The notes under the pieces are model-generated. The model was not told where the DNA came from. It was given only the letters and a program-made list of their open reading frames with translations, and made no database searches. This document shows positions 5,883-51,531 of a stretch of DNA of 64,000 nucleotides, piece by piece. The stretch covers positions 4,608,501 to 4,672,500 of the forward strand of contig NZ_JAPJZK010000001.1 of assembly GCF_026309355.1 (NCBI RefSeq), written 5' to 3'. The translations under genes and the position numbers were made by a program. Positions within the stretch are counted from its first letter, which is position 1. Each line of letters starts with the position of its first letter. Origin of the DNA: Spartinivicinus marinus (GTDB lineage: Bacteria > Pseudomonadota > Gammaproteobacteria > Pseudomonadales > Zooshikellaceae).

Positions 5883-7223
5883 TTAAGATGTAGGCGCCAA
5901 TCGACTATTAGCTGACAACTTGGATAGTGCTATTGCTGCTAGAAAGCCTGCGATACCTGGGATTAACCAAGTAAGCCCCTGACTGGCAAACGGCAGCTGC
6001 TGATACAAGTCGTAAACTGGTTTGATGGCTTCAATACCGGCAGCATTCAAACCATCAAATAAACTCACACAGAAAATAGCAAACAAGGTTAGGCTATTAA
6101 CCAAGCGAGGATTTGCTAGCTGGTCACTGATAAAGCACAACAGTATTAAGCCAATAGCTACTGGATAAATGGCTAATAGTGCAGGAATAGCCAATGCCAT
6201 CAATTGATTCAGACCAACATTAGCGACTAAGGCAGTAACGGCTGTACAAATTATCACAAAGGTACGGTATGAAATTTTTGGCCAGCATTTATGAAAGTAC
6301 TCACCGCAAGAGGTCATCAACCCAACCGCAGTGGTGAAGCAGGCTAAAGATATCGCAATGGCCAAAATCACTTGCCCCCAGTGGCCATAAATTTGGTTGA
6401 TATAGATACCAATCATTTGGGCGCCATTGATTTTCTCAGCTACTAAGCTATGACTGGTAGCACCCAGGTAAGACAGACTGATATACACCATCGACAAACC
6501 AGCTGCTGCAATAAAGCCAGCAGCCAGGGTGTACTTTGTTAGCTGCTTCGAGTCGGTAATGCCCCGTTGGCGCAAACTATTAATAATGATAATTCCAAAT
6601 ACCAGTGATGCTAAGGTATCTAAGGTTAAGTAACCTTCTGTAAAGCCTTTACTAAATGGCGAGCCTTCTATTTGAGTTGTTGATTGTAATTCACCTTGTG
6701 GGTTAAGGAAGGTACCCAGCGCAATCAGTACTAATACAACAACCAGTAAAGGGGTAATGACTTTACCAATTGAGTCCATCAGCCGGCCTGGAAATAGTGA
6801 AATTAACAACACAGCACTAAAGTAAACGATGGTGTACAACCACAAATATTGGTTTGGGTCTGCTGTTAACTCAGCGAATGGAAGGACACTCATCTCGTAA
6901 GCGACTACAGCAGTCCTTGGGGCAGCAAACAGAGGGCCAATTGATAAATAAATAACCACGCCAATAATGAAAGCAACTTTGGCTGGTAAATGCTGAGTAA
7001 TGGTAGGTAAGCCACCATTCATTTTAGCGGTGGCAACAATACCTAATAGTGGCAATCCAACGCCTGTAAGCAAAAAGCCAATCATGACAGGTGTTAGTTC
7101 CGCACCTGCATCATAGCCTAAGCCTGGTGGTAATATTAAGTTACCCGCCCCAAGAAATAAGGCGAAGGTCATTAGCCCAATGGCAATAATATCAACTGTT
7201 TTTAAACTAGCGTTATGATTCAT
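5883..7223 (-). CDS. brnQ: Branched-chain amino acid:cation symporter BrnQ
   Basis: Inner-membrane secondary transporter taking up leucine, isoleucine and valine with Na+ or H+. The sequence shows twelve hydrophobic segments and the family hallmark near the N-terminus, FALFLGAGNLILPPGLG, matching the LIV-cation symporter family. Length of about 446 residues is standard. I place the start at the ATG at 7223 (MNHNASLKTVD) because BrnQ proteins begin just before the first helix; an upstream TTG at 7244 would add seven unsupported residues. No partner genes are in the same transcription unit, and no leader peptide or riboswitch was seen upstream. Confidence 0.95.
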   Translation of the reverse strand: MNHNASLKTVDIIAIGLMTFALFLGAGNLILPPGLGYDAGAELTPVMIGFLLTGVGLPLLGIVATAKMNGGLPTITQHLPAKVAFIIGVVIYLSIGPLFAAPRTAVVAYEMSVLPFAELTADPNQYLWLYTIVYFSAVLLISLFPGRLMDSIGKVITPLLVVVLVLIALGTFLNPQGELQSTTQIEGSPFSKGFTEGYLTLDTLASLVFGIIIINSLRQRGITDSKQLTKYTLAAGFIAAAGLSMVYISLSYLGATSHSLVAEKINGAQMIGIYINQIYGHWGQVILAIAISLACFTTAVGLMTSCGEYFHKCWPKISYRTFVIICTAVTALVANVGLNQLMALAIPALLAIYPVAIGLILLCFISDQLANPRLVNSLTLFAIFCVSLFDGLNAAGIEAIKPVYDLYQQLPFASQGLTWLIPGIAGFLAAIALSKLSANSRLAPTS

Positions 7224-7601
7224 TAAAAACCTATCAGCGTGCAAAAATGTAATAGTTCAGCTGTAGGGTAATGAGGAATAGGGCTCCTACTGGGTAAGTA
7301 AGCACCAAGGTGTTAGGGCTGTTTTTGATAGTTACGCCCGTTACACCCAAAGCGAAGCGTATGCGCTTCACTCTGGCTACATAAATGCTGCATGCTGATG
7401 TCTTTTGGACAGAAAACACCCAAAAATTAGCTTATTTCTCAGGTGTTTTTAATAGCGTTGCCCACATTACCTGCCAATTGCTGAAATTAAGGGCGGCATT
7501 ATAATGAACTATACGTAGATGAGTAACAATGTTTCGGTAAATACTTATATTGTGGTTTAAAAAACATCCAATAAAGTAAAAATAATAAAAAAGGACTACC
7601 T
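7224..7601. other. Divergent intergenic region between brnQ and the GH5 gene
   Basis: No gene is supported. It contains a small perfect hairpin (GAAGCG/CGCTTC around 7353-7368). The 3' part is AT-rich and carries the likely promoter and an AAGGA ribosome site for the gene at 7602. Confidence 0.5.
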
Positions 7602-9026
7602 ATGACTGACTCTGTAAAGGATTTATTACGGTCTTTTCATTGGCTGATATTGATGGCCATGGTTTTAGTGGTGGCCGGTTGTAAAATCAAACCCGATCAA
7701 TCTCGTTATATTACAGACCCCCACGGGCGCTCTCTAGTGTTGCATGGGCTAAATACCAGCAGCAGTGCTAAGTCTGCACCCAATCGACTGCCTTGGATTG
7801 AGGAAAAAGATGTAGCAAGGGCCGCTAATAATTGGGGATTTAATTTTGTACGGTTTTTAATCTTTTGGGATCGCCTAGAGCCTGCACCAGGTGTTTATGA
7901 CCAACAATATTTAGCTGAAATAGCAGAAAGGGTACGTTGGTATGCCAAGCACAATATGTATGTACTGCTGGATATGCATCAGGATTTGTATGCGTTACAG
8001 TTTGGTGGTGATGGTGCGCCTGATTGGGCAACCGTGACTGATGGCTTACCTGTAGCTGTTCGTTCTCCTTGGTGGTTAACTTATCTAGAACTGGGCGTCA
8101 CCCGAGCGTTTGATAATTTCTGGGATGGTTCAGGTAGCCATAGTTATTTACAACAACACTATGCCAATGCCTGGCAGCAGGTCGCTAAATACTTTAAAGA
8201 CAGCCCAAATGTGATTGGCTATGACCTGATGAATGAGCCTTATGGGGGCAGTTCTCTATGGCCATTGTTTGAGCCACTCAAATTAAAACCTTTTTATGAT
8301 CGAGTCATCAGCAGAATTCGGGCAGTGGATAATGACACCTGGTTATTTATTGAGCCCCAGGCATTTGGAGTTAACTTTGGCGTGGCTTCTACGTTAGGTG
8401 TCATTGATGACCCAAGACAAGGCAATTCGCGTATAGTTTATGCACCACACTTTTATCCTGTTTTGGTTCATGAAGGCGCGGCTTATAAAGGTAATGTACT
8501 AGCATTTAAATCCTGGCCCGATGCACGGGTTAAAGAGTTGAATAAAATGAAAGTGCCTTTGGTGGTAGGTGAGTTTGGAATTAGTCCTAACCAGGAAGGC
8601 GCCTTACGTTTTGTAAATGATGTAACCACTATGGCAGACCATATGGGGGCCAGCTGGGCATTTTGGTCAAATGATCCAGGCTCATGGGCACCTACAGATG
8701 GAGAAGGTAAAGAAACCGTATTAGTGGATGGTCTAGTGAGGGTATATCCCAGAGCGGTAGCCGGACAAATCGTAAGCTTTTTATACGAGCCTAATAAAAA
8801 AGAATTTACCCTAACCTTTAACCACAATCCTCAAATAACTGCACCAACAGAAATTTATATTCCCGCACGCCGTCATTTTCCCAATGGTTGGCAAATTGAA
8901 GTTAAGCAAGGTATGAGTCAATATATGACGACGGATTGGGATGCAGTCAGAGAAGTACTAAAGGTGTCGTTTGAAAGTTATCAACTACCCAGGCAAATTA
9001 CGTTGAAAATTAAGACTGCTGGTTGA
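7602..9026 (+). CDS. Glycoside hydrolase family 5 lipoprotein, endoglycoceramidase-like
   Basis: Predicted surface or periplasmic hydrolase of 474 residues. The signal peptide ends with lipobox VVAGC (Cys27). The catalytic barrel shows GH5 signatures: YDLMNEPYGG with the acid/base Glu212, and VVGEFGIS with the nucleophile Glu324. The start of the barrel (ITDPHGRSLVLHGLN, then GFNFVRFLIFWDRLEP) and the segment MHQDLYALQFGGDGAP are characteristic of endoglycoceramidase-like GH5 enzymes, which cleave the oligosaccharide from glycosphingolipids; cellulase is less likely. A C-terminal beta-rich domain of about 90 residues follows, also typical of that group. The AAGGA ribosome site supports the ATG. 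Gammaproteobacteria make few glycosphingolipids, so the substrate is probably from a eukaryotic host or prey; that part is inference. Confidence 0.85.
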   Translation: MTDSVKDLLRSFHWLILMAMVLVVAGCKIKPDQSRYITDPHGRSLVLHGLNTSSSAKSAPNRLPWIEEKDVARAANNWGFNFVRFLIFWDRLEPAPGVYDQQYLAEIAERVRWYAKHNMYVLLDMHQDLYALQFGGDGAPDWATVTDGLPVAVRSPWWLTYLELGVTRAFDNFWDGSGSHSYLQQHYANAWQQVAKYFKDSPNVIGYDLMNEPYGGSSLWPLFEPLKLKPFYDRVISRIRAVDNDTWLFIEPQAFGVNFGVASTLGVIDDPRQGNSRIVYAPHFYPVLVHEGAAYKGNVLAFKSWPDARVKELNKMKVPLVVGEFGISPNQEGALRFVNDVTTMADHMGASWAFWSNDPGSWAPTDGEGKETVLVDGLVRVYPRAVAGQIVSFLYEPNKKEFTLTFNHNPQITAPTEIYIPARRHFPNGWQIEVKQGMSQYMTTDWDAVREVLKVSFESYQLPRQITLKIKTAG

Positions 9027-36809: not shown

Positions 36810-37039
36810 TCAACATCTCCGTGTAAACATTAATAAGCATGACTATAACGTACCTGATAGTACACAATAGATGTGATATTTAGAATTACTGATTTAATTT
36901 ATTAAATAACCAGTATAGCAGTATTACTCCATAGGCTGTTGAGTATCAGGTGCTTGAACTTTGAGAATGGTTACCGACATTTATCACCTTATCAGTTATC
37001 CTAAAAGCAATCTAAGTTTGTTAGCAAAGTGTGTATGAG

Positions 37040-38170
37040 ATGACAGACGTATTTATAACAGGCGTTGGTAAATGTCTACCGGGTGAGCCGGTGAGCAATG
37101 ATGAGATCGGCTCTATTATTGGTAAGATTAGTGACCGAAGTGATTCACTGGGTACAGCAACCTTACGAAAAAATGGCATTAAAAAGCGTTATTACGCATT
37201 AACAGCCAGTGGTAACTATACCCATACTAATGCACAAATGGCGGCAGAAGCTATTCATGATGCATTTGCTCATGCTAAACGTTCACCTGATAACGCTGAT
37301 TATTTAGCTACAAGCACAACACAAGGTGACTATCTAGTACCAGGTTTTGCCAGTGCAGTTCACGGTGAGTTAGGTATTCCACCGTTGGAGCTAGCTTCGT
37401 TCCAAAGTGTTTGTGCCAGTAGTCTAATGGCGGCTAAAAGTGCCTGGCTTGCGGTACGAACCCATGAGGCTCGGCTGGCTGTTGCCAGTGGTAGTGAGTT
37501 TTCCAGCCGTTGGTTTCAACCAGGGTTTTATCAACCTTTCTATAATGAAGACTCAAGACCAGATCCTGAACTGGAGTTTTTACGCTGGACCCTTTCTGAT
37601 GGAGCCGGTGCCGTGGTGTTTGAACCAGAACCTAAAGCAACAGGAATCTCTTTGCGAGTCGACTGGATCAAGCAAAAGTCATTCGCTGACCGCTTTCCCC
37701 CTTGTATGTATGCTGGTGCTGCTACAAATAAAGCAGCCAAGAACCAGCCATGGAACTTATATAACAGCCCTGCTGAGGCATACCAGGCAGGGGCAATTGC
37801 GCTGAAACAAGACTTTACTTTGCTCTATAAAATGTTTCCTGCCTGGGTTGGGTATTACCTTGAGTTGTTGGATAACTATCAACTTGATCCTAATGGTATC
37901 GATTATTTTCTTCCCCATTATTCTGCCCAATCTTTGGGGCAAGAAATGAAAAAACTGTTAATTAAAACAGGGGCGATGATTCCTGAAGAGCGATGGTTTT
38001 CTAATTTAGTCCATTGTGGTAATACAGGTACTGCTTCAATATTCATTATGTTAGATGAACTGGTAAAAGCCAAACCACTGACAGCAGGTCAAAAAATATT
38101 GTGTTTTGTGCCTGAAAGTGGTCGGGGTATTTGTTCATTTATGCATCTCTCCGTGTTTGATAATAATTAA
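37040..38170 (+). CDS. Ketosynthase III (FabH-like)
   Basis: 376 residues from the ATG at 37040 (a GTG at 37031 is the alternative). Thiolase-fold condensing enzyme with intact catalytic triad: Cys125 in SVCASSLMA, His293 in FLPHYSA and Asn328 in CGNTGTAS. It differs from housekeeping FabH in its N-terminus and in a long insertion around residues 155-240 containing a proline-rich, aromatic loop (WFQPGFYQPFY), so a non-standard acyl or amine acceptor is likely. It starts a tight operon: 10 bases to the next gene, then 1 base to the third. Condensation, acyl transfer or beta-ketoacyl chain start are all possible. Confidence 0.85.
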   Translation: MTDVFITGVGKCLPGEPVSNDEIGSIIGKISDRSDSLGTATLRKNGIKKRYYALTASGNYTHTNAQMAAEAIHDAFAHAKRSPDNADYLATSTTQGDYLVPGFASAVHGELGIPPLELASFQSVCASSLMAAKSAWLAVRTHEARLAVASGSEFSSRWFQPGFYQPFYNEDSRPDPELEFLRWTLSDGAGAVVFEPEPKATGISLRVDWIKQKSFADRFPPCMYAGAATNKAAKNQPWNLYNSPAEAYQAGAIALKQDFTLLYKMFPAWVGYYLELLDNYQLDPNGIDYFLPHYSAQSLGQEMKKLLIKTGAMIPEERWFSNLVHCGNTGTASIFIMLDELVKAKPLTAGQKILCFVPESGRGICSFMHLSVFDNN

Positions 38171-38180
38171 GGTTGTCATT

Positions 38181-38870
38181 ATGACAAATTCAGATTCTCA
38201 GTTGATTTCTACTCAGCAGGTATTACGTCAACTGACGATTGTGTGGGCTGATTTTGAAAGCCGTTTACTACAAGTACCGATTATTTATCGGGCAATGAAT
38301 AACCAGCTGCAATTAGAAGACTATCGCCGCTTATTGGCAGACCATTATCATCAAGTAAAAGAGGGGAGTGGTTGGATTTGTCGAGCAGCGTCTTCAATTA
38401 CAGAGCCTTATTTGGAACAACGGGCAGTGTTCATTGGTCATGCGACAACTGAACATCAGGATTATAAAATGCTTGAACGCTGTTATCAGACCGTTGGTGG
38501 TGATATTAATGAACTGCATAAACAAGGCAAAAATATCGGTTCTGAGGCATTATCTGCCTGGATGTATTATAAAGCCAGTCAAGCTAACCCTTTTGATTTA
38601 ATCGGTGCAATGTTTATTATCGAAGGATTAGGCAAGCAGTTTGCCCGAACGTTTGCTGAAGCATTGCAGCACAATATGGGCATATCAGCAGAGCAGTTGG
38701 AGTTTTATACTTATCATGCCGAGCATGATGGTGATCATCTTGATGAGTTGGAAGCTATATTAAGCACAGGTATTTTAACGATCCCTGATATCCAAAATGA
38801 AATTATCCGTACGGCTAAAGTGACAGCCAGGCTTTATCTATTGCAGTTAGAAGAATTAGGCAATTACTAA
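38181..38870 (+). CDS. Haem-oxygenase-fold diiron-type enzyme
   Basis: 229 residues, all helical, of the TenA/PqqC/CADD-like superfamily, now grouped as haem-oxygenase-like diiron oxidases. Metal-ligand candidates: Glu148 in IEGLG, and the signature His179-x3-Asp183-x2-His186 in YHAEHDGDH, which line up with Glu142, His174, Asp178 and His181 of CADD by spacing. Candidates for the first two ligands are His87, Glu91 and His92 (GHATTEH). Relatives perform N-oxygenation, oxidative decarboxylation or C-C cleavage. The gene starts at ATG 38181, ten bases after the ketosynthase. Reaction unknown. Confidence 0.8.
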   Translation: MTNSDSQLISTQQVLRQLTIVWADFESRLLQVPIIYRAMNNQLQLEDYRRLLADHYHQVKEGSGWICRAASSITEPYLEQRAVFIGHATTEHQDYKMLERCYQTVGGDINELHKQGKNIGSEALSAWMYYKASQANPFDLIGAMFIIEGLGKQFARTFAEALQHNMGISAEQLEFYTYHAEHDGDHLDELEAILSTGILTIPDIQNEIIRTAKVTARLYLLQLEELGNY

Positions 38871-38871
38871 A

Positions 38872-39753
38872 ATGACATGGCATAATAATTTCTCTGACCA
38901 AAAGATTCATAAAGATGACCCTAACCCCTGGTTAGCATTATACCTTGATAATAGTCTGCCCATGCATAAGTCTGCGAAAAGAGCTTTATTGCAAGGACAA
39001 AATAGTGGGTCTCGGCGATTATTATTGCCAATTATAAGGCCTTTTGCGCGACTAATGATTATTGTCGTGCAATTGTTGAGGATGATTATTCCCAGTAAGT
39101 GGAGTTCGTCAAAAGTGTTACATTACACCATTTATTGGGGGTTAAAGCACTTTGTAAAAAAAGATGCTAATTATTTGATTTTAAGACACTTTAACATTGG
39201 TACTGAGCTGCTTCAGTTTATTGCTGATAATACAGGGATAACAATTGAGTCAACCATACCGCTAAGGCCGAAAAAACTTGAAGATTTAAAAGACGATACT
39301 TTCCTTATTCATGATCTTAACGTATATAACTTTATAGCAGAACTGAACCAAAAGCTAACAGATGCGGGGCGTGAGTTTGAAGCCCCTGAAGTCATTAATT
39401 ACGATGCAATCACCGACGATGAGTTTGATATAGACCCAGGTAAACAGGGGATAATGAATATCATTGACTTACAGACAGCCGTTGAAGCCTATACACCGTT
39501 ATATGCCTTACTGCTATCTGACCATGACTTTTGGCGAGCCAGTAACTCATTACAGTTAGACGAAACCTTTGCTATTTATATTAGTAAATTGATGCGTGAT
39601 CCTTTGGCTGTGACCTTAGTGAGTAACCGTCACCCAACGGTGCCTTTTTCTACCCTTCAGGCAGGTTTTCGGTTAATGCTACATGGGTTAGATGCAGAAA
39701 TTTTGCATGGTTACCTTCGCGAACAAAAGCAGAAAGCAGGAAACCCCAGTTGA
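38872..39753 (+). CDS. Unrecognised protein encoded in the ketosynthase operon
   Basis: 293 residues beginning one base after the diiron enzyme stop, so translation is probably coupled. An amphipathic-hydrophobic segment (LPIIRPFARLMIIVVQLLRMIIP) may attach it to the membrane; downstream it is soluble and acidic, with a histidine-rich helix region (ILRHFNIGTELLQFI; SDHDFWRAS). I do not recognise a family with confidence; it resembles an uncharacterised DUF that often accompanies FabH-like and diiron genes. It could be a membrane-associated partner or a third enzyme. Confidence 0.7.
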   Translation: MTWHNNFSDQKIHKDDPNPWLALYLDNSLPMHKSAKRALLQGQNSGSRRLLLPIIRPFARLMIIVVQLLRMIIPSKWSSSKVLHYTIYWGLKHFVKKDANYLILRHFNIGTELLQFIADNTGITIESTIPLRPKKLEDLKDDTFLIHDLNVYNFIAELNQKLTDAGREFEAPEVINYDAITDDEFDIDPGKQGIMNIIDLQTAVEAYTPLYALLLSDHDFWRASNSLQLDETFAIYISKLMRDPLAVTLVSNRHPTVPFSTLQAGFRLMLHGLDAEILHGYLREQKQKAGNPS

Positions 39754-39828: not shown

Positions 39829-40242
39829 TTATTGTGTATTTTCTATTAGTAATTGACCATTTCCATATGGCACTATCTGATAACCAGTCAACACTGGATC
39901 TTGACGAACAATAATTATATTACCTCTGACTAAATTAATCAGTATTATACCTAGTGCTTTTTGATCCAAAGTATTTGGAGATAAATAAACCTCGGCTGCA
40001 CATAAATCAGCTGAAATTGAAATAGTATTGGATGCACCCGCGTTGCATAACTCTTTCAAGTTCGACCATGATATACTACTTGCTATTTCAGCAGGGACTT
40101 CATGACCTATGAATTTACCATGTATTTGCATATCAATGCTCTTGTCTGAGTCGTTAAATACTTCAAGTTCGTTAGGGGTTGCAAACAATTGAAGTGGTAA
40201 ACTGGTTGAAATTGCTATTGTTAGGTATTTGAGTATTTTCAT
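39829..40242 (-). CDS. Small secreted protein, unknown
   Basis: 137 residues from the ATG at 40242, chosen because GGAGG lies five bases upstream. The signal peptide is clear (MKILKYLTIAISTSLPLQLF). The mature chain is rich in beta-structure (NELEVFNDSDKSIDMQIHG) with two cysteines that could form one disulphide. No family recognised. Adjacent on the minus strand is a start-less remnant at 40305-40493. Confidence 0.6.
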   Translation of the reverse strand: MKILKYLTIAISTSLPLQLFATPNELEVFNDSDKSIDMQIHGKFIGHEVPAEIASSISWSNLKELCNAGASNTISISADLCAAEVYLSPNTLDQKALGIILINLVRGNIIIVRQDPVLTGYQIVPYGNGQLLIENTQ

Positions 40243-40304
40243 TATTCCTCCATGAGGCAAGCTAGTCATTGTTGCTATATTAAAAAAATAGCTGTTGTTA
40301 TATT

Positions 40305-40593: not shown

Positions 40594-41127
40594 ATGAACT
40601 ATAAAAAAATTTCAATGTTGTTGGCAAGCGTAGCTATTGTATCGAGTGTTTCAGCAAACGACTTTGGCCGTTACCACAAACTAACTACAATGTTTCTTGA
40701 AAATGAAAATAAGTGCTTAGAGGGAAATAGGGTTGCGCCTGGATCGACTTTAAAAGGAGCTGCTTTTATGGACACTTGCCAGAATGTTACAGGGCAGCGT
40801 TGGAAATTAATTCCTGTAGGAGGTGAGTACTTCAAATTAACCACTCAGTTCCTTGAAAGTGAAAATAAATGTTTAGAAGGAAACAAGGTTGCACCAGGGT
40901 CTACTTTAGGCGGTGCTGCTTTTATGGACACTTGCCAAAATGTAACGGGTCAACTGTGGAAAAAAATTCCAGTAGGAAATGGTTACTTTAAGCTAACGAC
41001 CAAATTCTTAGAAAATAAAAATAAGTGTTTAGAAGGCAATAGGCTTGCTCCAGAATCTACACTTGGTGGTGCTGCATTTATGGATAATTGCCAAAATGTA
41101 ACTGGTCAGCTTTGGAAGTTTAAGTAA
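40594..41127 (+). CDS. Secreted three-repeat ricin-type lectin-like protein
   Basis: 177 residues: a signal peptide (MNYKKISMLLASVAIVSSVSA) and then exactly three units of 52 residues. Each unit has the pattern Y-x-K-L-T-T-x-F-L-E, NKCLEGN, GAAFMD-x-CQNVTGQ-x-W-K. The Q-x-W element and the two Cys per unit are typical of ricin-type beta-trefoil lectin subdomains, and three such units would make one trefoil. The units are about 85 percent alike, also in DNA, so they arose by recent tandem duplication. It is probably an exported carbohydrate-binding protein. No catalytic domain is attached. Confidence 0.8.
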   Translation: MNYKKISMLLASVAIVSSVSANDFGRYHKLTTMFLENENKCLEGNRVAPGSTLKGAAFMDTCQNVTGQRWKLIPVGGEYFKLTTQFLESENKCLEGNKVAPGSTLGGAAFMDTCQNVTGQLWKKIPVGNGYFKLTTKFLENKNKCLEGNRLAPESTLGGAAFMDNCQNVTGQLWKFK

Positions 41128-42110: not shown

Positions 42111-44066
42111 CTAACGTTTACTAAAGTAATTTAATGATATATGATAATTATGTTCTTTTGAAGTATCTAAATCGGGTGCGTTAATTGTCTCCTTGGGGGC
42201 ATTGGGTTCAAAGTCGGGGTCTATATATTCTCGAATTAAATGGGTTGCATTGGTATTGTAACTTTCTTTAATGGCAGCAGAAGGTGTCTGTTGGTGGGTT
42301 TCCTCATAAACGGCACTGATAGGCGGCAGGTTAAACCCTTTTGCAAGCACAATGTCTGTTGAGCGCAGCGCACCTTCAACCCAGCCTTGATAATCTGAAT
42401 AGGCTTCTCCGCAAATATATAAGCCTGGTAATGGTTCAGCCAACTGCTCCATAACAGCCTTATCATTGGCATGCAATGCCCACTGATGCACACCATAACC
42501 AAATTGCTCACTGGGGTTTTCATCAAAGCGGGTGCTGCCATCCCAAATACGTGCACTAGTTAAAGTGGGTTGTGGTACATAGTGAGTTGAGAACAGTGAC
42601 TTAAAGAATTCAGTAGCTGTATTAACCACTGACTGAGAAGCAGCAAAGAAATGCCCTTTATATTTCTCTTGTAGGGGGGAGTTAAATAAAGGACCGTTAT
42701 GTTGTAGGGCTTTCCAGAAGTTGATATTTAGAAAATCACAGTAAATAGTTAATGCAGCCGGTTTTTCGTATTTATTTTGATTGATTTGGTCAATTTTTTC
42801 TCGTAAATGTTCGGGCACGTCTTTTTGATGACTTTTGAGCCAACTTTGGTATTCGAGTGCTGCGACCAGTTCATTATCAATCGCATAAAATGGATAGACT
42901 GAACCTAATGGTAAGTCAGAAAAATTAGGCCCAAATGAAACCGGTGGACGCCCAGTTATGTTATTACCCCACCAGGCTTTATCATAGTATAAGTTAATTT
43001 TTAGTAAGGCCTGATTGGTGGTGGTTTGCAGTGTATCCCATAACTGTTTGGATTGATCATCAGGTAAGCGATTTAGTGCATTGGAGTTAATAAACAGCTT
43101 TTCCAGAGCCAGCCGGGGTAATCCTAAAATGACTTGCTTGGCATGAATCACATTAGAGGTTGTAGTGCCATCAGGTGCGGTGGTTTGATAGCTTAGTGCA
43201 TAATCGCCATTTTCTTCGTGTCTATCAATGCTTTCTAAATGGGTTTTTAAGAAAATACGTTCTTTGCCAATTGCGTTGACCAGTGCATTTGGTAAAGTAC
43301 TAAAGCCATCTTTAAAGGTTTTAAATTGAGGATCATTAGGAAAGTCTTCTAATAGCTGATAGGCAACACCTGCATTCATTTGTGATAAAAATGTGCCATT
43401 AAAACCTAATAAACGATAGAGAAGGGTAATACACTCATTGGAATAACCCATTTCGGTGAGGAGATTCCAAAGCGTCCAATCTTTTAGACAAACTCCATTC
43501 CACTGACATTCCAACCGGAACTTTTGCCAAAAGGTGGGGGTGCGTTTGTCTGGTCGTTCGGTAAAATTAGGGTTAACATCAAGAATTCGATTAAAAACAG
43601 TATTAATGATTGATTTTGGATCGATACCTTGCTCAATAGGTTCAAGGTTATAAAGCTCTTGCCAGATTGAATAATTATTTTCTTTGGCAACTTGGTTATT
43701 AAAGCTCTCACCTCTAAAAAACAGTCTGTTGTTACCACCACTGTTCATTGGGAAGGGGACAATCTGATTGTCAATATCCAATAATAAAAACAGGCTCATT
43801 AAATCGTCCATATTATCGAAGGTAAAACGCATACCGCCTTCTTCCTCCTTAACAGTAATCTCATCATTGAATTCAATCAAGTCAGAGTCTAAACGGCCAC
43901 CCGTACGATGAGAGCGTTCTAAAATAACGATATTTTTGTCTGGAGAATCTTTTAAAATACGCCAGGTGGCATATAAGCCAGACATACCTGCACCAATGAC
44001 AACAACGTCTGCATTGGCTGGAACCTGTTTATCATGGGCTAAATCTTTAAGTGTAAAATGTGGCAT
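42111..44066 (-). CDS. Flavin-containing amine oxidase (L-amino-acid oxidase-like)
   Basis: FAD enzyme of 651 residues starting at ATG 44066, preceded by AAGGAGGAATT. The dinucleotide-binding motif VVIGAGMSGLYATWRIL begins near residue 20, with ERSHRTGGRLDS further on, and the C-terminal FAD-contact region GLYICGEAYSDYQGWVEGA is present, as in monoamine and L-amino-acid oxidases. The size and insertions fit bacterial L-amino-acid oxidases, for example those for lysine or glutamate, better than monoamine oxidases. Products would be a 2-oxo acid, ammonia and H2O2. It is the last gene of a minus-strand cluster with a ThDP enzyme and a DyP peroxidase. No export signal. Confidence 0.82.
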   Translation of the reverse strand: MPHFTLKDLAHDKQVPANADVVVIGAGMSGLYATWRILKDSPDKNIVILERSHRTGGRLDSDLIEFNDEITVKEEEGGMRFTFDNMDDLMSLFLLLDIDNQIVPFPMNSGGNNRLFFRGESFNNQVAKENNYSIWQELYNLEPIEQGIDPKSIINTVFNRILDVNPNFTERPDKRTPTFWQKFRLECQWNGVCLKDWTLWNLLTEMGYSNECITLLYRLLGFNGTFLSQMNAGVAYQLLEDFPNDPQFKTFKDGFSTLPNALVNAIGKERIFLKTHLESIDRHEENGDYALSYQTTAPDGTTTSNVIHAKQVILGLPRLALEKLFINSNALNRLPDDQSKQLWDTLQTTTNQALLKINLYYDKAWWGNNITGRPPVSFGPNFSDLPLGSVYPFYAIDNELVAALEYQSWLKSHQKDVPEHLREKIDQINQNKYEKPAALTIYCDFLNINFWKALQHNGPLFNSPLQEKYKGHFFAASQSVVNTATEFFKSLFSTHYVPQPTLTSARIWDGSTRFDENPSEQFGYGVHQWALHANDKAVMEQLAEPLPGLYICGEAYSDYQGWVEGALRSTDIVLAKGFNLPPISAVYEETHQQTPSAAIKESYNTNATHLIREYIDPDFEPNAPKETINAPDLDTSKEHNYHISLNYFSKR

Positions 44067-44111
44067 AATTCCTCCTTGATAATAGGATATATATTCCTTT
44101 TTTATAGTTAG

Positions 44112-44239
44112 TATAGCCAATGCGAATATTTTTTAGGGAAGGCTGTCAAGCGACGAAGCCCCATGAACCTATGAATAATAGGTGGTTGGGGTGAGAAGTG
44201 ACGACAAACAACCCCTAAAAGTTATTCGCGAAGGGTATA
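44112..44239 (-). repeat. Dispersed imperfect palindromic repeat, copy R3
   Basis: Reverse orientation relative to copy R2: ends TATAGCC at 44112 and GGGTAT near 44239, and the internal features (ATTCGCGAAGGG, TAGGTGGTTGGGGTGAG) are shared. It separates the amine oxidase gene from the upstream CMD gene and may form a hairpin in the operon message. Confidence 0.78.
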
Positions 44240-44242
44240 TGC

Positions 44243-44788
44243 TTAAAAAGGAGCGACTCCTTCTTCCGGTAAGGGCACTTCAAAAGAAAAAACAATAGTG
44301 GTAATCATTCGATACAGACCACAAGCAATGGTAAGATCAAGTAAACCATCTAAACCTAAAAATTCGATTAAAATATTTTGGGTTTTGGGCGGAATGTTTC
44401 GTTGGTGAACAATATGTTGGGCAGCCTGCCAGGTAGTTAAATATAAAGGCTTTATTTCTGCAGTCGCAATATCACCAGCAAGTACTTGATCGATGACACT
44501 TTGGGGTAAGCCTGCTTTAAGCGCTGGTTGGACATGTTTTTCCCAAACAAAAGGGGCGCCCAGCTCTCGGGCTGTAGCTAAAATACCCAACTCACGAATA
44601 TCGTCTGCCAGGTTACTTTCATAACGAACATAAGTACCTAACTGACCAACATGCTCTGCTAATATGGGGTGATTAAGTAACGTACGATACATGCCGGATA
44701 AGCTTGTTCTGGGGCCTGCCAGTTTGTCATAAACAGCCTTGCCCTGATCATCAAGTTCATCTCTAGTGGGTAAGGGGAGTTTCGCCAT
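44243..44788 (-). CDS. Carboxymuconolactone decarboxylase/AhpD-like protein 1
   Basis: 181 residues of the CMD fold: the segment LADDIRELGILATARELGAPFVWEKHVQPALKAGL is the helix pair that normally carries the catalytic residues. The AhpD Cys-x-x-Cys motif is missing; a Glu and a His (EKHV) occupy the region used by true decarboxylases and their relatives. It is thus likely not a redox peroxidase, but a lyase- or isomerase-like enzyme acting on a ring or keto acid intermediate. Encoded between the ThDP enzyme and the amine oxidase on the same strand. Specific reaction unknown. Confidence 0.8.
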   Translation of the reverse strand: MAKLPLPTRDELDDQGKAVYDKLAGPRTSLSGMYRTLLNHPILAEHVGQLGTYVRYESNLADDIRELGILATARELGAPFVWEKHVQPALKAGLPQSVIDQVLAGDIATAEIKPLYLTTWQAAQHIVHQRNIPPKTQNILIEFLGLDGLLDLTIACGLYRMITTIVFSFEVPLPEEGVAPF

Positions 44789-44839
44789 AATGATGCGTCC
44801 TTATTTTCTATAATCAGTCCTGTGCCTACAGTTAAAGAA

Positions 44840-44859
44840 ATACCCAATGCGAAGGATAT
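44840..44859. repeat. 20-bp fused-end derivative of the palindromic repeat
   Basis: The sequence ATACCCAATGCGAAGGATAT consists of two end motifs of the dispersed repeat (TATCCTTCGC and GCATTGGGTAT) joined without the interior. It lies three bases downstream of the ThDP enzyme stop. It could be a deletion scar or footprint. Confidence 0.55.
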
Positions 44860-44861
44860 TT

Positions 44862-46643
44862 CTATCCGTCTACCCAGGATGTGTGCTCTATCATTTCTTG
44901 TCGCCAGGGGTTAATTGGTGTTTCATAATGTGGGTCACACCGGGCATCAATAACAAATGGACCGGTTGCTTTAAATGCTTGCTCAAATGCTTTTGCTAGT
45001 TGATCTGGATTTTCTACTCGAATACCGCCACCACCTAGTGAGCGAGAAAAAGCGGCCCAGTCATGGGTACTGAGTGTGGTAATTTTTTTGGCAATAGGGG
45101 ATTTGGCTCTTAAAAATACATTGCCTAGTGCGCTGTTGTTGATCACTAAAACAATTAGATGAATATTATGGTGTGCCGCAGTTTGTATTTCGATGCCGTT
45201 CATTAACATGCAACCATCGCCAGTGATTACGACACAGGGTTTTTCCGGGCAGGCAATTTTAGCACCGACCCCAGCAGGAATGGCCCAACCCATTGGCGCT
45301 AATGCAGTGGCTGTTAAGTAGCTACGTGGCAAACAACTATTCCAATAATGTCCAGCAAATGCGCGGTGAGCACCAGAATCACCGACAATCACCGTATTTC
45401 TAGGTGCAGCTTTTTGTAGCTCAGCAATAACTCGCGCAGGGTGTAGAGGAGTTGCATTATTTTGCATATCCTCCGCTTGATAATAGCGAGGATATTCTTT
45501 GATGGTGGCCAGCCATTGTTGCCGATTTTTGTTGCCTTGTTTTAGTGTTTCAAGTTGTTTGGCTTGATTGGGGTCTAACAACCAGGTTAATAAAGTTTTT
45601 GCATCAGCGTTAACCGCATAATTAATCGGAAAGTTTTTGGAGAATATGGTGCTATCCACATCAACATGGTAAATACCAGCTTTGGGGCTTAAATGTTGAT
45701 CCCAGCGCATTGTGTCTCGCTGATTAAGGCTAGAACCCATCACGATAAGCAGAGTAATATTGTCAACGCCTTGATTAGGGCAGTTTGCATCGGCTGGGTC
45801 ATGATTTAATAGTGCTCTTGTCGAGTGATTGGTGCCTGCATAGCCAAATACACCAAGTGATAAAGGATCGTCTTCGGGGAAAACGCCTTTGGCTTTTAAT
45901 GTGGTTGCAACGGGAATTTGATAATGACTGGCAAACTGATATAACGCCTCACTGGCCTCTGAACGGGTGCAGCCACTGCCAGCAAGAATGGCAATATTGC
46001 CTGTTGCATGTTGAGTAAGGCCTGTGAGTAATTGGTTGGCACCCGTTAAGTCTATAAAACTCGGTTGTTTAATTTCATTTTGAAGGGAGGCAGCGAGATT
46101 TTGCTCATCATTAATTGTTTCTGTTTGTATGTCTTTGGGAAGGCTTAAACTGACGGGTTGAGGTTTATTCCCTAACATGGTTCTAATGGCAGTCTGTAAA
46201 TAATGGGGTACCAGTTTACTGTTAGGAATCTGTTGGGCAAATGCGGTAACAGGCCTCAATAAACTAATATCATTTAAGCCCGCAGCGCTGGCATCTTGAA
46301 ACCCACCTCTACCATTCCACAATGTAGGTATTTCTCCTGTAATGGCGAGCACAGGAGATTGATCTGTATAAGCGGTGGCTAATGGACCGATCATATTAGC
46401 GGTGCCAGGGCCACCAATTCCCATGCAAACTCCAAACTTACCGCTGGCACGAGCATAACCATCGGCCATATAAGCGGCACCTGTTTCGCTGGCTGCCACC
46501 ACTGCATTTATCCCATTTGGTTGATCGCTAAACTCATCAAGAAATGGGTCGACTACACCGCCTGGAACCATAAATACATGTGAAACATCATATTGTTTGA
46601 TGGTATTCAATAAATAGTTTGTTGATTTTGTTCCGTCCGTCAT
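44862..46643 (-). CDS. Thiamine-diphosphate-dependent enzyme, acetolactate synthase-like
   Basis: 593 residues from the ATG at 46643, with GGGGG five bases upstream; a TTG two codons earlier is an alternative. The three ThDP modules are present: the N-terminal PYR domain with the catalytic Glu in ASETGAAYMADGYARA, the central domain and the PP domain with the ThDP/Mg motif GDGCMLMNGIEIQTAAHHN. The sequence is not a biosynthetic IlvB/IlvI type, since no regulatory subunit lies nearby, but resembles 2-keto-acid decarboxylases of the AruI type acting on products of amino-acid oxidation. It lies next to an L-amino-acid oxidase-like gene, which would supply its 2-oxo-acid substrate (inference). 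Confidence 0.85.
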   Translation of the reverse strand: MTDGTKSTNYLLNTIKQYDVSHVFMVPGGVVDPFLDEFSDQPNGINAVVAASETGAAYMADGYARASGKFGVCMGIGGPGTANMIGPLATAYTDQSPVLAITGEIPTLWNGRGGFQDASAAGLNDISLLRPVTAFAQQIPNSKLVPHYLQTAIRTMLGNKPQPVSLSLPKDIQTETINDEQNLAASLQNEIKQPSFIDLTGANQLLTGLTQHATGNIAILAGSGCTRSEASEALYQFASHYQIPVATTLKAKGVFPEDDPLSLGVFGYAGTNHSTRALLNHDPADANCPNQGVDNITLLIVMGSSLNQRDTMRWDQHLSPKAGIYHVDVDSTIFSKNFPINYAVNADAKTLLTWLLDPNQAKQLETLKQGNKNRQQWLATIKEYPRYYQAEDMQNNATPLHPARVIAELQKAAPRNTVIVGDSGAHRAFAGHYWNSCLPRSYLTATALAPMGWAIPAGVGAKIACPEKPCVVITGDGCMLMNGIEIQTAAHHNIHLIVLVINNSALGNVFLRAKSPIAKKITTLSTHDWAAFSRSLGGGGIRVENPDQLAKAFEQAFKATGPFVIDARCDPHYETPINPWRQEMIEHTSWVDG

Positions 46644-46696
46644 AGCCAACCCCCATAAATAATATTGTTAATCGGTATTTTGGTGACAAAAATGCT

Positions 46697-48193
46697 CTAT
46701 AGTTGTTTTAAAAAATTAATGCTGGGCATAAAGAAATATTCACCACCACGATTTTTAACAAAGCCAGAAAACTCAAAAGTAACAGGAGGGTTGCCTGTCA
46801 GATCATTAGAGCCCCATTTTTTTGGCCAAGTTTGTGCGGCAGGTTTTGTCTTAGGTGTGGGCACCCCTACAAGCGGATCAAGCCCTGTATCTTTTTTAAG
46901 AAAATTATTATTGTTGCACCAGGTATTTTGCATAAAAATAAATTGTTGCTCGATATTGGCTTGTAAACTAAGGAATAACAAACCAGCATCCGTCCATTCA
47001 TCTTCTGGCAACAAGTCAGTTGAGCCATAACTGATTCCCCGGCGAACAATACGGCGACTGCGCTCTATTGTTGGTGGGGCATTAAATTGTCTTAAAGTAT
47101 CATTTCGTGGATTGGTTTTTCGTACATGTGAATGAATTGGGCAGCGTAAGCCATTGATATCGTCATCATAGTTGAAGTTATTGAATAAATTAGTCCAACC
47201 ATTGGTTGCCTGTTCGGAAATAGGAGTACCATCTTTAAACCGACCAACACATAATGCACCGGCATATTCAGCATTAATCGGTTCTGAGTTGCCACTGACT
47301 TCGTTAATCGTCCCGGCTAATAGTGCTAAGCGGTCCCAAAAGCCCTTAATATTTTGCTGTAACTTACGGTAAACCACATAACTGCCATAACTGCTAACAT
47401 CGCCACCAGGATCTTTAACCATGACTGTATGAAGCGAGGCACTGGGGTCATAATGGTTAAAACCACCATTTTCAAAATCTTCTTGTAAGTCAGAAAATAA
47501 AAATTTGGGATTACTGACCCCATCAACAAATCCAAAATGCTCAATGACTTGGCCCTGATCGTTACGCATAACATGGCCGTGTTGTACAGTAATAATGTCT
47601 GCTACTGCTTCCAGTTCACAGGAGAGTTGGTCCACTTGTTTATCTAGGTATTGTTCTGCGGCTGCATCAGCTATCGCAAAATCGACACTGGGTTGCCTGC
47701 CATAAGCTAAAATGATCAGGCCATCTATGGTTGATTTAAAAGGAGGTTCCCAGTCAGATAAATTATCATTGAGTGGATTCGCTTTGGGGTGATGGTGTTG
47801 GCGCTTTTCATCAAGTCTGGGGGTGGTATCATATTCTTGGCTAAGCTCTTTCATCCCTGCCAGAAAGGCTTTATCTGTTGGCCATTGTGACTTATCTACG
47901 GCTAATGCCTGATAACCCGAGCGGCTTAACATTAAGTTAATAAATAGATGATTGTTACCATTTTTTTTAAAGTCTGTGGACTGGTTTTCTTGCTCCAGGG
48001 TTGACGTTATTTTATCAGCAAACGCCTTGACCCATTTTCGACTATTTTCAGCATTGTCTTTAAATTTAATAAATAGATGACGAGAATGATCTCGCCCATG
48101 ACTTTTTAATATATTACCCTGTAAGTGGGTAAAAATATGCTTAAAGTTAGGGTCATCAATATCAATATTGGTTTGGTTTAGGTCAACAGACAT
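46697..48193 (-). CDS. DyP-type haem peroxidase
   Basis: 498 residues. The DyP hallmark GFVDGVSNP, with the catalytic Asp in GxxDG, lies near residue 220, and the distal-side RRIVRRGISYG motif with the haem-contact Arg and conserved RG-x-S-Y is near residue 385. Length and the absence of a Tat signal suggest a cytoplasmic, class C/D-like member. DyP enzymes use H2O2 to oxidise phenolic or dye-like substrates. Its placement in a cluster with an H2O2-generating oxidase makes peroxide consumption or substrate oxidation within one pathway plausible. The gap to the ThDP gene is 53 bp. Confidence 0.93.
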   Translation of the reverse strand: MSVDLNQTNIDIDDPNFKHIFTHLQGNILKSHGRDHSRHLFIKFKDNAENSRKWVKAFADKITSTLEQENQSTDFKKNGNNHLFINLMLSRSGYQALAVDKSQWPTDKAFLAGMKELSQEYDTTPRLDEKRQHHHPKANPLNDNLSDWEPPFKSTIDGLIILAYGRQPSVDFAIADAAAEQYLDKQVDQLSCELEAVADIITVQHGHVMRNDQGQVIEHFGFVDGVSNPKFLFSDLQEDFENGGFNHYDPSASLHTVMVKDPGGDVSSYGSYVVYRKLQQNIKGFWDRLALLAGTINEVSGNSEPINAEYAGALCVGRFKDGTPISEQATNGWTNLFNNFNYDDDINGLRCPIHSHVRKTNPRNDTLRQFNAPPTIERSRRIVRRGISYGSTDLLPEDEWTDAGLLFLSLQANIEQQFIFMQNTWCNNNNFLKKDTGLDPLVGVPTPKTKPAAQTWPKKWGSNDLTGNPPVTFEFSGFVKNRGGEYFFMPSINFLKQL

Positions 48194-48215
48194 CCTTTTT
48201 CATCCCCTGGCTAAT

Positions 48216-48327
48216 ATACCCGTCGCGAATCATGTTTAGGTTTTGTTATCATCGTTACTTACCCCAATCACCTATTTCAATAGGCTTATGAGGCTTTGTC
48301 ACTTGATAGCCTTCGCATATGGGGTAT
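48216..48327 (+). repeat. Dispersed imperfect palindromic repeat, copy R4
   Basis: 112 bp, ends ATACCCGTCGCGAATC and GGGGTAT, with the shared interior (CACCTATTTCAATAGGCTTATGAGG). It lies between the DyP gene and the second CMD gene of the oxidase cluster. Confidence 0.8.
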
Positions 48328-48370
48328 AGACTCTTCACGAAAGGCTTTATTTATTATGTATAATTTGAAG

Positions 48371-48982
48371 CTATACTGATTGCTCTTCAGGTATTGTGTG
48401 TTTAATTGAGCTTGCTGTTGGTTGATTAAATGAAGGCTCTGGCAATGAAGGTTTGCCAGGTTGAGGGCCTAGCCCAAATGCGTTTAATATACAGGCCACC
48501 ATTGAATAATAACCCATTAGGGTAGTGATTTCAGTGATTTCTGTCTTGTTAAATTGCTGTTTACATTTCGTAAATACAGTGTCACTGACCCGCTTGTTAT
48601 TTATTAACTCACGCCCATAATGAATGATAGTTTGCTCTCTTAACTCTACGTCAGTTAATGAGCGTTTATATTTAATAACGTCAATAGTCTCTTGTGAAAT
48701 ACCAGCTTTTAAAGCGAGTTCTTCATGGGCAGACCATTCAAACTGACAATAATTTTCACTAAGTGTCACTAATATAACGATTTCTTTAAGATTTGCGGGC
48801 AGGATAGAATCAAACCGTAAATACGCACCAAGGTCTGCTATAGGTTGAGCCAGTGGAGGACTATTTAATAAAAATGAAAAAACACCCACCACTTTTTTAC
48901 GACTTTGATAAATATAATCGTAAACTGCTTTTTGTTCGTCTGATAATCCAGTTGGTTTATCTATATAAGGTATTCTAGTCAT
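48371..48982 (-). CDS. Carboxymuconolactone decarboxylase/AhpD-like protein 2
   Basis: 203 residues from the ATG at 48982, chosen for the AAAGGA site; longer frames start up to eight codons earlier. The CMD core reads LPANLKEIVILVTLSENYCQFEWSAHEELALKAGI: one Cys but no Cys-x-x-Cys, and the E-x-S-A-H arrangement of lyase-like members. It is distantly similar to the CMD protein at 44243 and lies upstream in the same cluster, so the two may form a hetero-oligomer or act on related intermediates. A 178-bp gap containing a repeat precedes the DyP gene. Confidence 0.8.
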   Translation of the reverse strand: MTRIPYIDKPTGLSDEQKAVYDYIYQSRKKVVGVFSFLLNSPPLAQPIADLGAYLRFDSILPANLKEIVILVTLSENYCQFEWSAHEELALKAGISQETIDVIKYKRSLTDVELREQTIIHYGRELINNKRVSDTVFTKCKQQFNKTEITEITTLMGYYSMVACILNAFGLGPQPGKPSLPEPSFNQPTASSIKHTIPEEQSV

Positions 48983-49044
48983 GACCCAATCCTTTGAATG
49001 CATCACACAAGAGTAGCTAATAATTTTTAAAACGACACTTTTAG

Positions 49045-50010: not shown

Positions 50011-51531
50011 TTATTGCTTTACGGGAGTATAACGAACAGGCTCTCGGACGGTTTTATAGTGTAAGGTTTCTACTGGCCCAATATAAGTGGCTGCTGGATT
50101 GGTAACCCCTCGCTTGACATGATAGGGATCAACAAATTCACCATAGAAGCCCTCTGGATTGATTTTATAGTCGACGGTTAAACTGCCATGCCCAGCATTA
50201 CCCAAATACTTGGTGGGGTCATTCCAGGTTTCACCATCCAAGTTGGTGGTGAGCTTAATGTCAATTAATACTGCATCACAAAGAGGAGTGACTTCTTCAT
50301 AGTTAGTTGGCCAACCAGCACCACCCGAGGTTTTCGGATATTCTGCCCAATCACCTCCTTTCATTGGACATGCACCACCACCATTAAAAGCGGCGCGATC
50401 AGGGTGATGAACGCCGTATAAGTGAGTGCCGGTAGCGCTAACAATTTTTTTCTTACCTGTTTGGGTACGGTGAGCGTTTGCTAAATGAAAACGAGGCTGT
50501 TGGGTAACCTGGGTTTTTAAACGACGCTCACCGCTAGCAACTAAATGTTCATAGTATGGTCCATTAGGCCGAATATAAGAAAAATCCTGATTGGTTTTAT
50601 TGTCAAATACAGCAGTTAAAAACAGGTATTTTTCATTAAAAAAGGGACGCTCAACCAAATAAAATTCTGCTTTGGTTTTATTGGTATCGATTGCTTGCCA
50701 GTCAACTTCATTAGCAGTACCTGTATTTACCCAGGTTCTGGCATCTTCAAACAGTTTTAATCTTAAAATATTGGTATAGTTTTCATTAATGTCTAAGCCT
50801 GCTCGTTTGCCTAGGGGACCTGCTTTATTAGCAGCAGGTTGAGTAAAGGCAAACTCCATTGCTTTTTTTGCATATGGGAATTGGAAGTCAGACATGGTGC
50901 AATACCAGTGGGGAAGATCAATAGGCTGGTGACTGTCGTATCTACTTTGATATTTAGGGTGGTTAATCGGCAAGTCAATGTATTTTAAGTAGCCACTTTC
51001 ATCTACTTTATCTTGTGGCAGCTTGTAACCACTCCAACTTTCGTCAGGTAAATAATGACTATAGCTTTCAGTTAAGGTAGTTAAATATTTTTTATCAAAA
51101 ATATCAGCGTTTTGAGGAATACCTTTAGCGCCAGCTTTGCGATACTCCCGTATCATGCCATTGTCTTGAACACGCCATAGGCCGTGTTTACCTTCTCCGA
51201 TCATGGTAAATACCTGCTCGACAATATTCACAAAACGGTAGGTATTATTAGTGCTCATATAGCCAAAATAAACCGGTAGGTGGGGTATTTTAGAGTGAGT
51301 AGTAGAAGGTCTTGGGGTTTGGTTGCTGGTATAGTAAAAAGGATCACCGCCTGTTAAATCTGTAAGGTCAACAGGGGGAGTGGTTGCTAGTATCCTGTTG
51401 GGAGCACTGCATTTGCCAATTTTGCTAAGAAAGTCGGCTGATAATTGAGAGTTAGCATAGCTGACTTGAGATAAAGCAGCCAAAATAATCTGAAAACCTG
51501 TTAGCCAGGTAAGAATTGTCTTCATCATCAT
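50011..51531 (-). CDS. Secreted protein of unknown family
   Basis: 506 residues with a signal peptide (MMMKTILTWLTGFQIILAAL, cleavage near SYANS). About seven cysteines occur, including KCSAPN near the mature start and PLCDAV near the end, suggesting disulphides. Aromatic, glycine-rich motifs such as HHPDRAAFNGGGACPM and PVYFGYMS are present but match no family I know. No lipobox, no transmembrane helix after the signal. It could be a periplasmic or secreted enzyme or binding protein. It stands alone between the GNAT gene and a putative small RNA. Confidence 0.6.
   Translation of the reverse strand: MMMKTILTWLTGFQIILAALSQVSYANSQLSADFLSKIGKCSAPNRILATTPPVDLTDLTGGDPFYYTSNQTPRPSTTHSKIPHLPVYFGYMSTNNTYRFVNIVEQVFTMIGEGKHGLWRVQDNGMIREYRKAGAKGIPQNADIFDKKYLTTLTESYSHYLPDESWSGYKLPQDKVDESGYLKYIDLPINHPKYQSRYDSHQPIDLPHWYCTMSDFQFPYAKKAMEFAFTQPAANKAGPLGKRAGLDINENYTNILRLKLFEDARTWVNTGTANEVDWQAIDTNKTKAEFYLVERPFFNEKYLFLTAVFDNKTNQDFSYIRPNGPYYEHLVASGERRLKTQVTQQPRFHLANAHRTQTGKKKIVSATGTHLYGVHHPDRAAFNGGGACPMKGGDWAEYPKTSGGAGWPTNYEEVTPLCDAVLIDIKLTTNLDGETWNDPTKYLGNAGHGSLTVDYKINPEGFYGEFVDPYHVKRGVTNPAATYIGPVETLHYKTVREPVRYTPVKQ

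Follow-up and report, generated by a model that had tools for sequence, protein, structure and literature searches.

A five-gene set of Spartinivicinus marinus with a candidate role in L-amino-acid oxidation and carboligation by a thiamine diphosphate enzyme

The question raised by this locus is whether five neighbouring minus-strand genes at 42111-48982 of the window, the 64,000-nucleotide stretch of the 6.88-Mb Spartinivicinus marinus genome analysed here, form a pathway, and of what kind. They encode, in this order, a protein of the carboxymuconolactone decarboxylase (CMD)/AhpD fold (CMDa), a DyP-type peroxidase, a thiamine diphosphate (ThDP) enzyme, a second CMD-fold protein (CMDb) and an L-amino-acid oxidase (LAAO) (Table 1). 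All five open reading frames (ORFs) named in the original prediction, which had been made from the letters of the DNA, were found where it placed them, and their Pfam domains agree with the families it gave. Our overall reading, to which we give a probability of roughly 0.4, is that the LAAO makes a 2-oxo acid, the ThDP enzyme uses it in a carboligation, the CMD pair decarboxylates or isomerises the product and DyP spends the H2O2. Each enzyme family is already known; the conserved combination is new to the literature searched, where the five-gene set was not found (subscription journals were mostly outside its reach).

The original prediction had held that the idea of a pathway would fall if the genes were unlinked in relatives, and they proved to be linked within the genus as well as in a family far removed from it. 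Ten genomes, from two lineages, were found whose ThDP gene reaches 60% identity or more, and every one of them carries the whole set. It was kept in all 3 genomes of the genus examined, with protein identities of 73-97% in the two further ones, and a scan of species genomes, with the best 80 of 539 relatives retained, gave Photobacterium galatheae S2753 as the best locus outside the genus (63% identity). In the family of this organism, Vibrionaceae, the ThDP gene was carried by 7 of 150 sampled genomes, P. galatheae counted, and was accompanied by the full set in 7/7, in the order oxidase-CMDa-DyP-ThDP-CMDb and with gaps of -4 to 148 bases in the four blocks measured. In one of these loci (L121; retrieved loci are numbered with L) the oxidase is broken into two overlapping frames of 117 and 501 amino acids (5959-7778), a split that is either real or an assembly error. 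The genes flanking the blocks, named by eye, were carB and dacB/greA in L018, L121 and L123, ruvB and a PotF-like gene in L124 and L125, and other genes in L120 and in L122, giving four or more distinct flanks in Vibrionaceae; because the flanks differ, the five genes seem to travel together as a unit. Seven proteins flanking the set in the window (KAS III-like, haem-oxygenase-like, DUF6999, lectin-like, GNAT and two hypothetical proteins; the LysR gene was not among the queries) gave no match in the Vibrionaceae stretches.

Outside the ten genomes the genes were sparse. In two genomes of another genus of the window's family, neither LAAO nor DyP was matched at E<=1e-10, and the best ThDP matches reached 28-29%. 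Among 369 genomes of the class, the ThDP enzyme was matched at E<=1e-95 in two, its own and one with a 42% identical protein, whose locus lacks the other four genes within the 19.9 kb examined, and the LAAO at E<=1e-80 in its own only. In the order of P. galatheae the ThDP enzyme was matched in two of 394 genomes, P. galatheae itself and a 35% relative, which added no further block. Plasmids yielded 16 ThDP relatives, all below 60% identity, one LAAO relative and no further block; viral contigs yielded one ThDP relative (27%) and likewise no further block. We regard the gene linkage as real and as very probably functional.

Assignment of the window oxidase to the LAAOs is well supported by sequence comparison. 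It matched both 7og2 and the ancestral LAAO 7c4k at 1e-255 (phmmer) and equals the Pseudoalteromonas luteoviolacea LAAO at 8/8 pocket residues (F229, L245, F249, Q359, L361, D447, V533 and Q535; named in PMC9331233 and counted by hand in the 7og2 alignment, whose numbering fits that of the paper). In 14/14 aligned flavoenzymes, the window oxidase included, the LAAO site keeps its carboxylate-binding Arg, Lys and Trp, with roles as described in PMC9331233; which aligned residues fill these roles was assigned in this analysis, and the alignment includes L126, another P. galatheae flavoenzyme located away from the block. A monoamine oxidase, named in the original prediction as the alternative that would undo it, was rejected, since the kept carboxylate site, with the pocket residues, makes it unlikely.

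In the Vibrionaceae blocks, which are 7/10 of all, the oxidase is of a different family and is placed at the opposite end from the window's. It shares 16-18% identity with the window oxidase, groups with L-glutamate oxidase and vertebrate-type LAAO (7e0c 2e-89), and has Arg in 6/6 intact rows at a column where 8jpw and 7e0c, the two L-glutamate-oxidase chains compared, have Arg and Glu. This column may correspond to Arg305 of L-glutamate oxidase, a residue that the title of a cited paper calls crucial in substrate recognition. Because the oxidase has been swapped for another LAAO family inside the block, one role appears to be filled by different oxidases; the replacement within an otherwise fixed block points to one shared step and is strong evidence for a real pathway.

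Oxidases and ThDP enzymes are also neighbours elsewhere. In a ThDP tree of 89 rows (a quick tree with Shimodaira-Hasegawa approximate likelihood-ratio test (SH-aLRT) support only, omitting rows below 500 amino acids, including 5/7 Vibrionaceae ThDPs and carrying a long-branch warning, L049 among the rows concerned), the eight block ThDPs formed one clade (support 100), and four ThDPs adjoining an amine-oxidase-type gene, from Leptolyngbya, Xenococcaceae, Granulosicoccaceae and a gammaproteobacterial metagenome-assembled genome (MAG), formed another (support 100). The two clades are sisters (SH-aLRT 96) and lie inside a 46-row clade (support 100) that holds all ThDP-CMD pairs in the tree. The oxidases beside the sister ThDPs keep the LAAO site in all four lineages; three of the four genes lie on the ThDP strand and that of L038 on the opposite one, tail to tail, the L038 oxidase being without a Pfam match and assigned by weak similarity. 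The Leptolyngbya oxidase is nearest to 8t8a (6e-144) and 8jt7 (3e-143), both named only 'Amine oxidoreductase', which we take for L-arginine oxidase. The window-type LAAO occurred in 2/394 other genomes from the order of P. galatheae (L130 and L131, 59-63% identity), each time followed by a ThDP gene, which adjoins it in L131 and is one ORF further on in L130. These two ThDP enzymes are of indolepyruvate-decarboxylase type, in L131 by TIGR03393, the top-scoring model (245 bits against a cut-off of 946, which it misses), and in L130 as judged from sequence. Taken with the sister clade and the blocks, they place an LAAO beside a ThDP enzyme in at least three oxidase groups and at least two ThDP groups. 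Both these pairs and the oxidase replacement strengthen the earlier suggestion that the keto acid may be processed further and the peroxide consumed.

By profile and fold the window ThDP enzyme is a relative of HKA synthases, and ligation of two 2-oxo acids is a candidate reaction for it. Its nearest solved relatives are BbmA and CsmA (8x3x, 8xod, 8x3z; 30% and 25% identity), which are known here from their PDB titles and on which no literature was found. BbmA 8x3x, 'ThDP-dependent HKA synthase', was nearest by profile (1e-112) and also best in a fold search with the ThDP model (2e-49), ahead of plant acetohydroxyacid synthase and glyoxylate carboligase; among viral structures, this model matched two acetolactate-synthase-like giant-virus proteins, which were of no help. 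The catalytic Glu and the FQD, GDG and NN motifs are present, and the model has a predicted local distance difference test (pLDDT) score of 87.9, falling below 50 at residues 107-121. We read HKA as alpha-hydroxy-beta-keto acid. Acetolactate-synthase models missed their cut-offs (NF004919, 342 of 866 bits; TIGR00118, 329 of 538 bits), and the AruI model NF005712 (5-guanidino-2-oxopentanoate decarboxylase) came behind them with 230 bits against 500. From the description 'AruI/acetolactate-synthase-like' in the original prediction the AruI label was dropped, the nearest structures being titled HKA synthases, and the enzyme is placed in the acetolactate-synthase/HKA-synthase branch. The motifs of indolepyruvate and pyruvate decarboxylases are absent: the window enzyme has FQD, where L130 and L131 differ, as they do at other motifs. 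FQ-type ThDP enzymes can also decarboxylate.

In 24 of 26 loci (L018-L043) the ThDP gene is immediately followed by a CMD gene of the same orientation, and in the other two, L024 and L038, an oxidase gene takes its place. Beyond these, a short CMD gene stands beside the ThDP gene in L044-L046, an oxidase in L048 and L049, and neither in L047, L050 and L051. None of 46 more distant loci (L052-L097) has a CMD gene beside the ThDP gene, L059 having one 4.5 kb off; some of them hold little DNA after it (L071 and L094 end inside the ThDP gene, L075 just after). The CMD, short-CMD and oxidase profiles were built from proteins among those counted, the 24 loci are partly dependent (L020 is nearly a copy of L021, a single MAG is the source of L031 and L035, and several Methylocystis loci are near-copies), and the CMD matches of L042 and L043 are partial or frame-disturbed.

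Both block CMD proteins exceed the Pfam CMD gathering score and are assigned by fold to the gamma-carboxymuconolactone decarboxylase family. The model of CMDb (pLDDT 92.7) shares the fold of AhpD, SMU.961 and the debrominase Bmp8 (6ohj), with template modelling (TM) scores of 0.76-0.82; identity to enzymes of this fold is 11-15%, and an invariant WxxH stands in place of CxxC. The alignment covered 13/23 single CMD partners and 9/10 CMDa rows (L121 left out), and Trp and His were invariant in 32/32 rows. CMDb reads [VI]WEKH in 10/10 block rows, and CMDa (9 rows) and the 13 aligned single partners read EWxxH, which makes the two CMD proteins of the block distinct conserved types. A peroxidase of AhpD kind was rejected, CxxC being found in 0/32 rows, as the original prediction had noted for the window proteins.

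Other gene groups were seen around ThDP relatives. Cupin genes stand beside them in L015 (8334-10432), L038, L101 (8899-11247) and L104 (6546-8371), the matches of L038 and L101 being below the Pfam cut-off; in L015, L101 and L104 a cupin perhaps replaces CMD as an interchangeable partner. On a Paraburkholderia plasmid (L100, 5491-10704), genes for acetaldehyde dehydrogenase, 4-hydroxy-2-oxovalerate aldolase, SDR, short CMD and ThDP stand in a row, and in L020 (402-6135) and L021 (35-5769) a malate:quinone-oxidoreductase-family gene (family tested in L020 only) lies between two ThDP genes, followed by CMD. EPSP-synthase-like, SDR, PhyH, ThDP and MFS genes occur together in L047 (7043-12956), L050 (7816-13793) and L132 (1979-7956), from Paludibacterium and Xenorhabdus, and are perhaps another biosynthetic cluster with a ThDP relative; SDR and the L132 families were judged by eye, and L132 and L050 are apparently one and the same contig.

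The peroxidase exceeds the TIGR01413 family cut-off for DyP-type peroxidases. Its GxxDG Asp, His and Arg motifs were present in 9/9 aligned rows (the tenth block, L124, is outside the alignment) and are shared with Alr1585 (5c2i), the nearest solved DyP. Unlike Alr1585, it belongs to a conserved block that also contains an H2O2-producing oxidase, and DyP enzymes use H2O2.

In the pathway that we favour, the LAAO would oxidise an L-amino acid to a 2-oxo acid, ammonia and H2O2. The 2-oxo acid probably passes on to the ThDP enzyme, which would build it into a new carbon skeleton; we lean slightly towards carboligation over plain decarboxylation at this step. CMDa and CMDb, perhaps as one mixed oligomer, would decarboxylate or isomerise a labile ThDP product, and there is a reasonable likelihood that this product is what they act on: an alpha-hydroxy-beta-keto acid belongs to the beta-keto acids, for which decarboxylation by a CMD-fold enzyme would be a chemically apt next step. 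DyP can be expected with some confidence to use the H2O2 made by the LAAO, which it would consume on the product (e.g. enediol to diketone) or remove to shield the 2-oxo acid. H2O2 decarboxylates 2-oxo acids chemically, and since it destroys them a peroxidase would also protect the intermediate. Substrate, product and CMD step are what we infer. The cassette is cytosolic as far as could be seen by eye, and no signal peptide was seen on the five proteins, judged in the same way without a predictor.

Comparable reactions are described in PMC7466098 and PMC9822442, in which the carbazole and scytonemin carboligases CqsB3/NzsH and ScyA couple amino-acid-derived 2-oxo acids to alpha-hydroxy-beta-keto acid or beta-keto-acid products; the likeness drawn here is one of reaction. 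The CqsB3 product in carbazole biosynthesis is an alpha-hydroxy-beta-keto acid (PMC7466098), and ScyA and NzsH yield related products (PMC9822442). The carquinostatin route (PMC7466098) obtains its 2-oxo acid from an aminotransferase and continues with a KAS III-like enzyme, where the window has an oxidase and a CMD pair. Feeding LAAO-made 2-oxo acids to the ThDP carboligase NzsH works in a published one-pot in vitro synthesis. In the putative Pl-laao operon of P. luteoviolacea, an LAAO of the same type is accompanied by a ThDP-type 2-oxo-acid decarboxylase gene, and the legend of its operon figure, unlike the window block, names no CMD or DyP (PMC6316408). Parts of PMC11694665, PMC4699246 and PMC12247030 were also drawn on.

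Several points weigh against the proposed pathway. None of the five proteins has a known activity, and the sister loci with an oxidase gave neither DyP nor CMD in a profile search. The poorly modelled residues 107-121 of the ThDP enzyme include the FQD motif, identity to BbmA is only 30%, and HKA is not spelled out in the structure titles. CMDb has lost the Glu beside its invariant Trp, which makes its catalysis uncertain. Leu, Met and Gln are the preferred substrates of the P. luteoviolacea LAAO, followed by Phe, Trp and Tyr, and the glutamate-oxidase-like Arg of the Vibrionaceae enzyme contrasts with the Leu/Met/Gln preference, so a common substrate of the two oxidases is not obvious; 2-oxoglutarate, moreover, could be made without any oxidase.

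If the ThDP enzyme only made an aldehyde from the 2-oxo acid, with CMD and DyP handling by-products, the set would serve catabolism by oxidative decarboxylation and supply nitrogen or carbon. AruI acts so on 2-ketoarginine and indolepyruvate decarboxylase on indolepyruvate, and the closest chains to the Leptolyngbya oxidase, the neighbour of a sister ThDP, are taken for, though not named as, L-arginine oxidase. The ThDP enzyme beside the P. luteoviolacea-type LAAO elsewhere is of the indolepyruvate-decarboxylase type (by the sub-cut-off TIGR03393 score), and a catabolic role is proposed in PMC6316408. The window ThDP enzyme, however, falls in the acetolactate-synthase/HKA-synthase branch with an FQD motif that is absent from the decarboxylase-type rows, and decarboxylation leaves the two fixed CMD genes and the ThDP-CMD pair unexplained; although FQ-type enzymes are also capable of decarboxylation, we consider it unlikely.

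The LAAO could instead be an antimicrobial source of H2O2, from which DyP protects the producer, with ThDP and CMD enzymes disposing of the keto acid. DyP enzymes use H2O2, which fits such a weapon, and the P. luteoviolacea LAAO is antimicrobial. The conserved ThDP and paired CMD genes would be superfluous for this purpose, LAAO-ThDP pairs exist without DyP, and inspection by eye, without a predictor, showed no export signal, which together make it improbable. That two independent functions lie side by side, peroxide chemistry of LAAO and DyP and something else for ThDP and CMD, would suit the many genomes with ThDP-CMD and no LAAO or DyP, and is most improbable given LAAO-site oxidases that pair with sister ThDPs without DyP and a Vibrionaceae order (LAAO-CMDa-DyP-ThDP-CMDb) that interleaves the genes.

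The proposed pathway would, if true, unite in one function LAAO, DyP and CMD genes, which as a rule are annotated singly; the five proteins could be reconstituted in vitro, so that the pathway is directly testable. A wider proposal, which we consider doubtful, is that ThDP carboligase and CMD-fold decarboxylase form an undescribed two-part system across Pseudomonadota, Myxococcota and Actinomycetota, one branch of it wired to interchangeable LAAOs, and that in two lineages DyP uses the H2O2 to oxidise the ligated product; amino acids would then lead, by a transaminase-free route, to small molecules of a new class. The wider ThDP-CMD pair would give a role to a group of CMD proteins.

Table 1. 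Genes of the five-gene set, with positions in the window and the evidence for each assignment.
Feature	Position	Strand	Evidence
CMDa: CMD/AhpD-fold protein with FEWSAH motif	48371-48982	-	Pfam CMD 34.2 bits, cut-off 23; motif
DyP-type peroxidase	46697-48193	-	TIGR01413 113 bits, cut-off 100.5; nearest solved chain Alr1585 5c2i, 5e-98
ThDP enzyme, acetolactate-synthase/HKA-synthase branch	44862-46649	-	Pfam TPP N/M/C; BbmA 8x3x best by profile and fold; motifs
CMDb: CMD/AhpD-fold protein with VWEKH motif	44243-44788	-	Pfam CMD 24.3 bits, cut-off 23; fold; motif
L-amino-acid oxidase (FAD), P. luteoviolacea LAAO type	42111-44066	-	phmmer 7og2/7c4k; Pfam Amino_oxidase; LAAO site residues

From CMDa to the oxidase the genes are separated by 177, 47, 73 and 176 bases. 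CMDa and the oxidase were given ATG starts, their reading frames being open up to GTG at 49006 and TTG at 44120, respectively. Pfam E-values were 8e-19 for Amino_oxidase and 3e-5 and 2.5e-8 for the two CMD proteins; the ThDP enzyme holds the TPP enzyme N, M and C domains, and DyP holds Dyp_perox_C and DyP_N. The set contains no transporter or regulator, as originally noted, and none belongs to the conserved set either. No Rfam family was found within 37-53 kb of the window, and promoter-like sites (27, against 20.0 in shuffles, standard deviation 4.2) and terminator-like sites (8, against 6.8, standard deviation 2.8) were near shuffle values and are uninformative.

A triplet of KAS III-like, haem-oxygenase-like (PF14518) and DUF6999 genes at 37031-39753 (plus strand) is kept beside the block in the genus. 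As carbazole routes use a KAS III-like enzyme, the triplet was considered as part of the pathway and was rejected, DUF6999, the only one of the three searched, being found in 0/7 block-bearing Vibrionaceae genomes. DUF6999 occurred in 3/37 relatives outside the genus, without the block and with best ThDP matches of 27-28%. Also in the window are an NttC family protein (type II secretion system substrate, PF24268) at 39829-40269 on the minus strand, a ricin-B-lectin-like three-repeat protein at 40594-41127 and a 506-amino-acid protein without a Pfam match at 50011-51531, the last two matched in L016 and not in L017.

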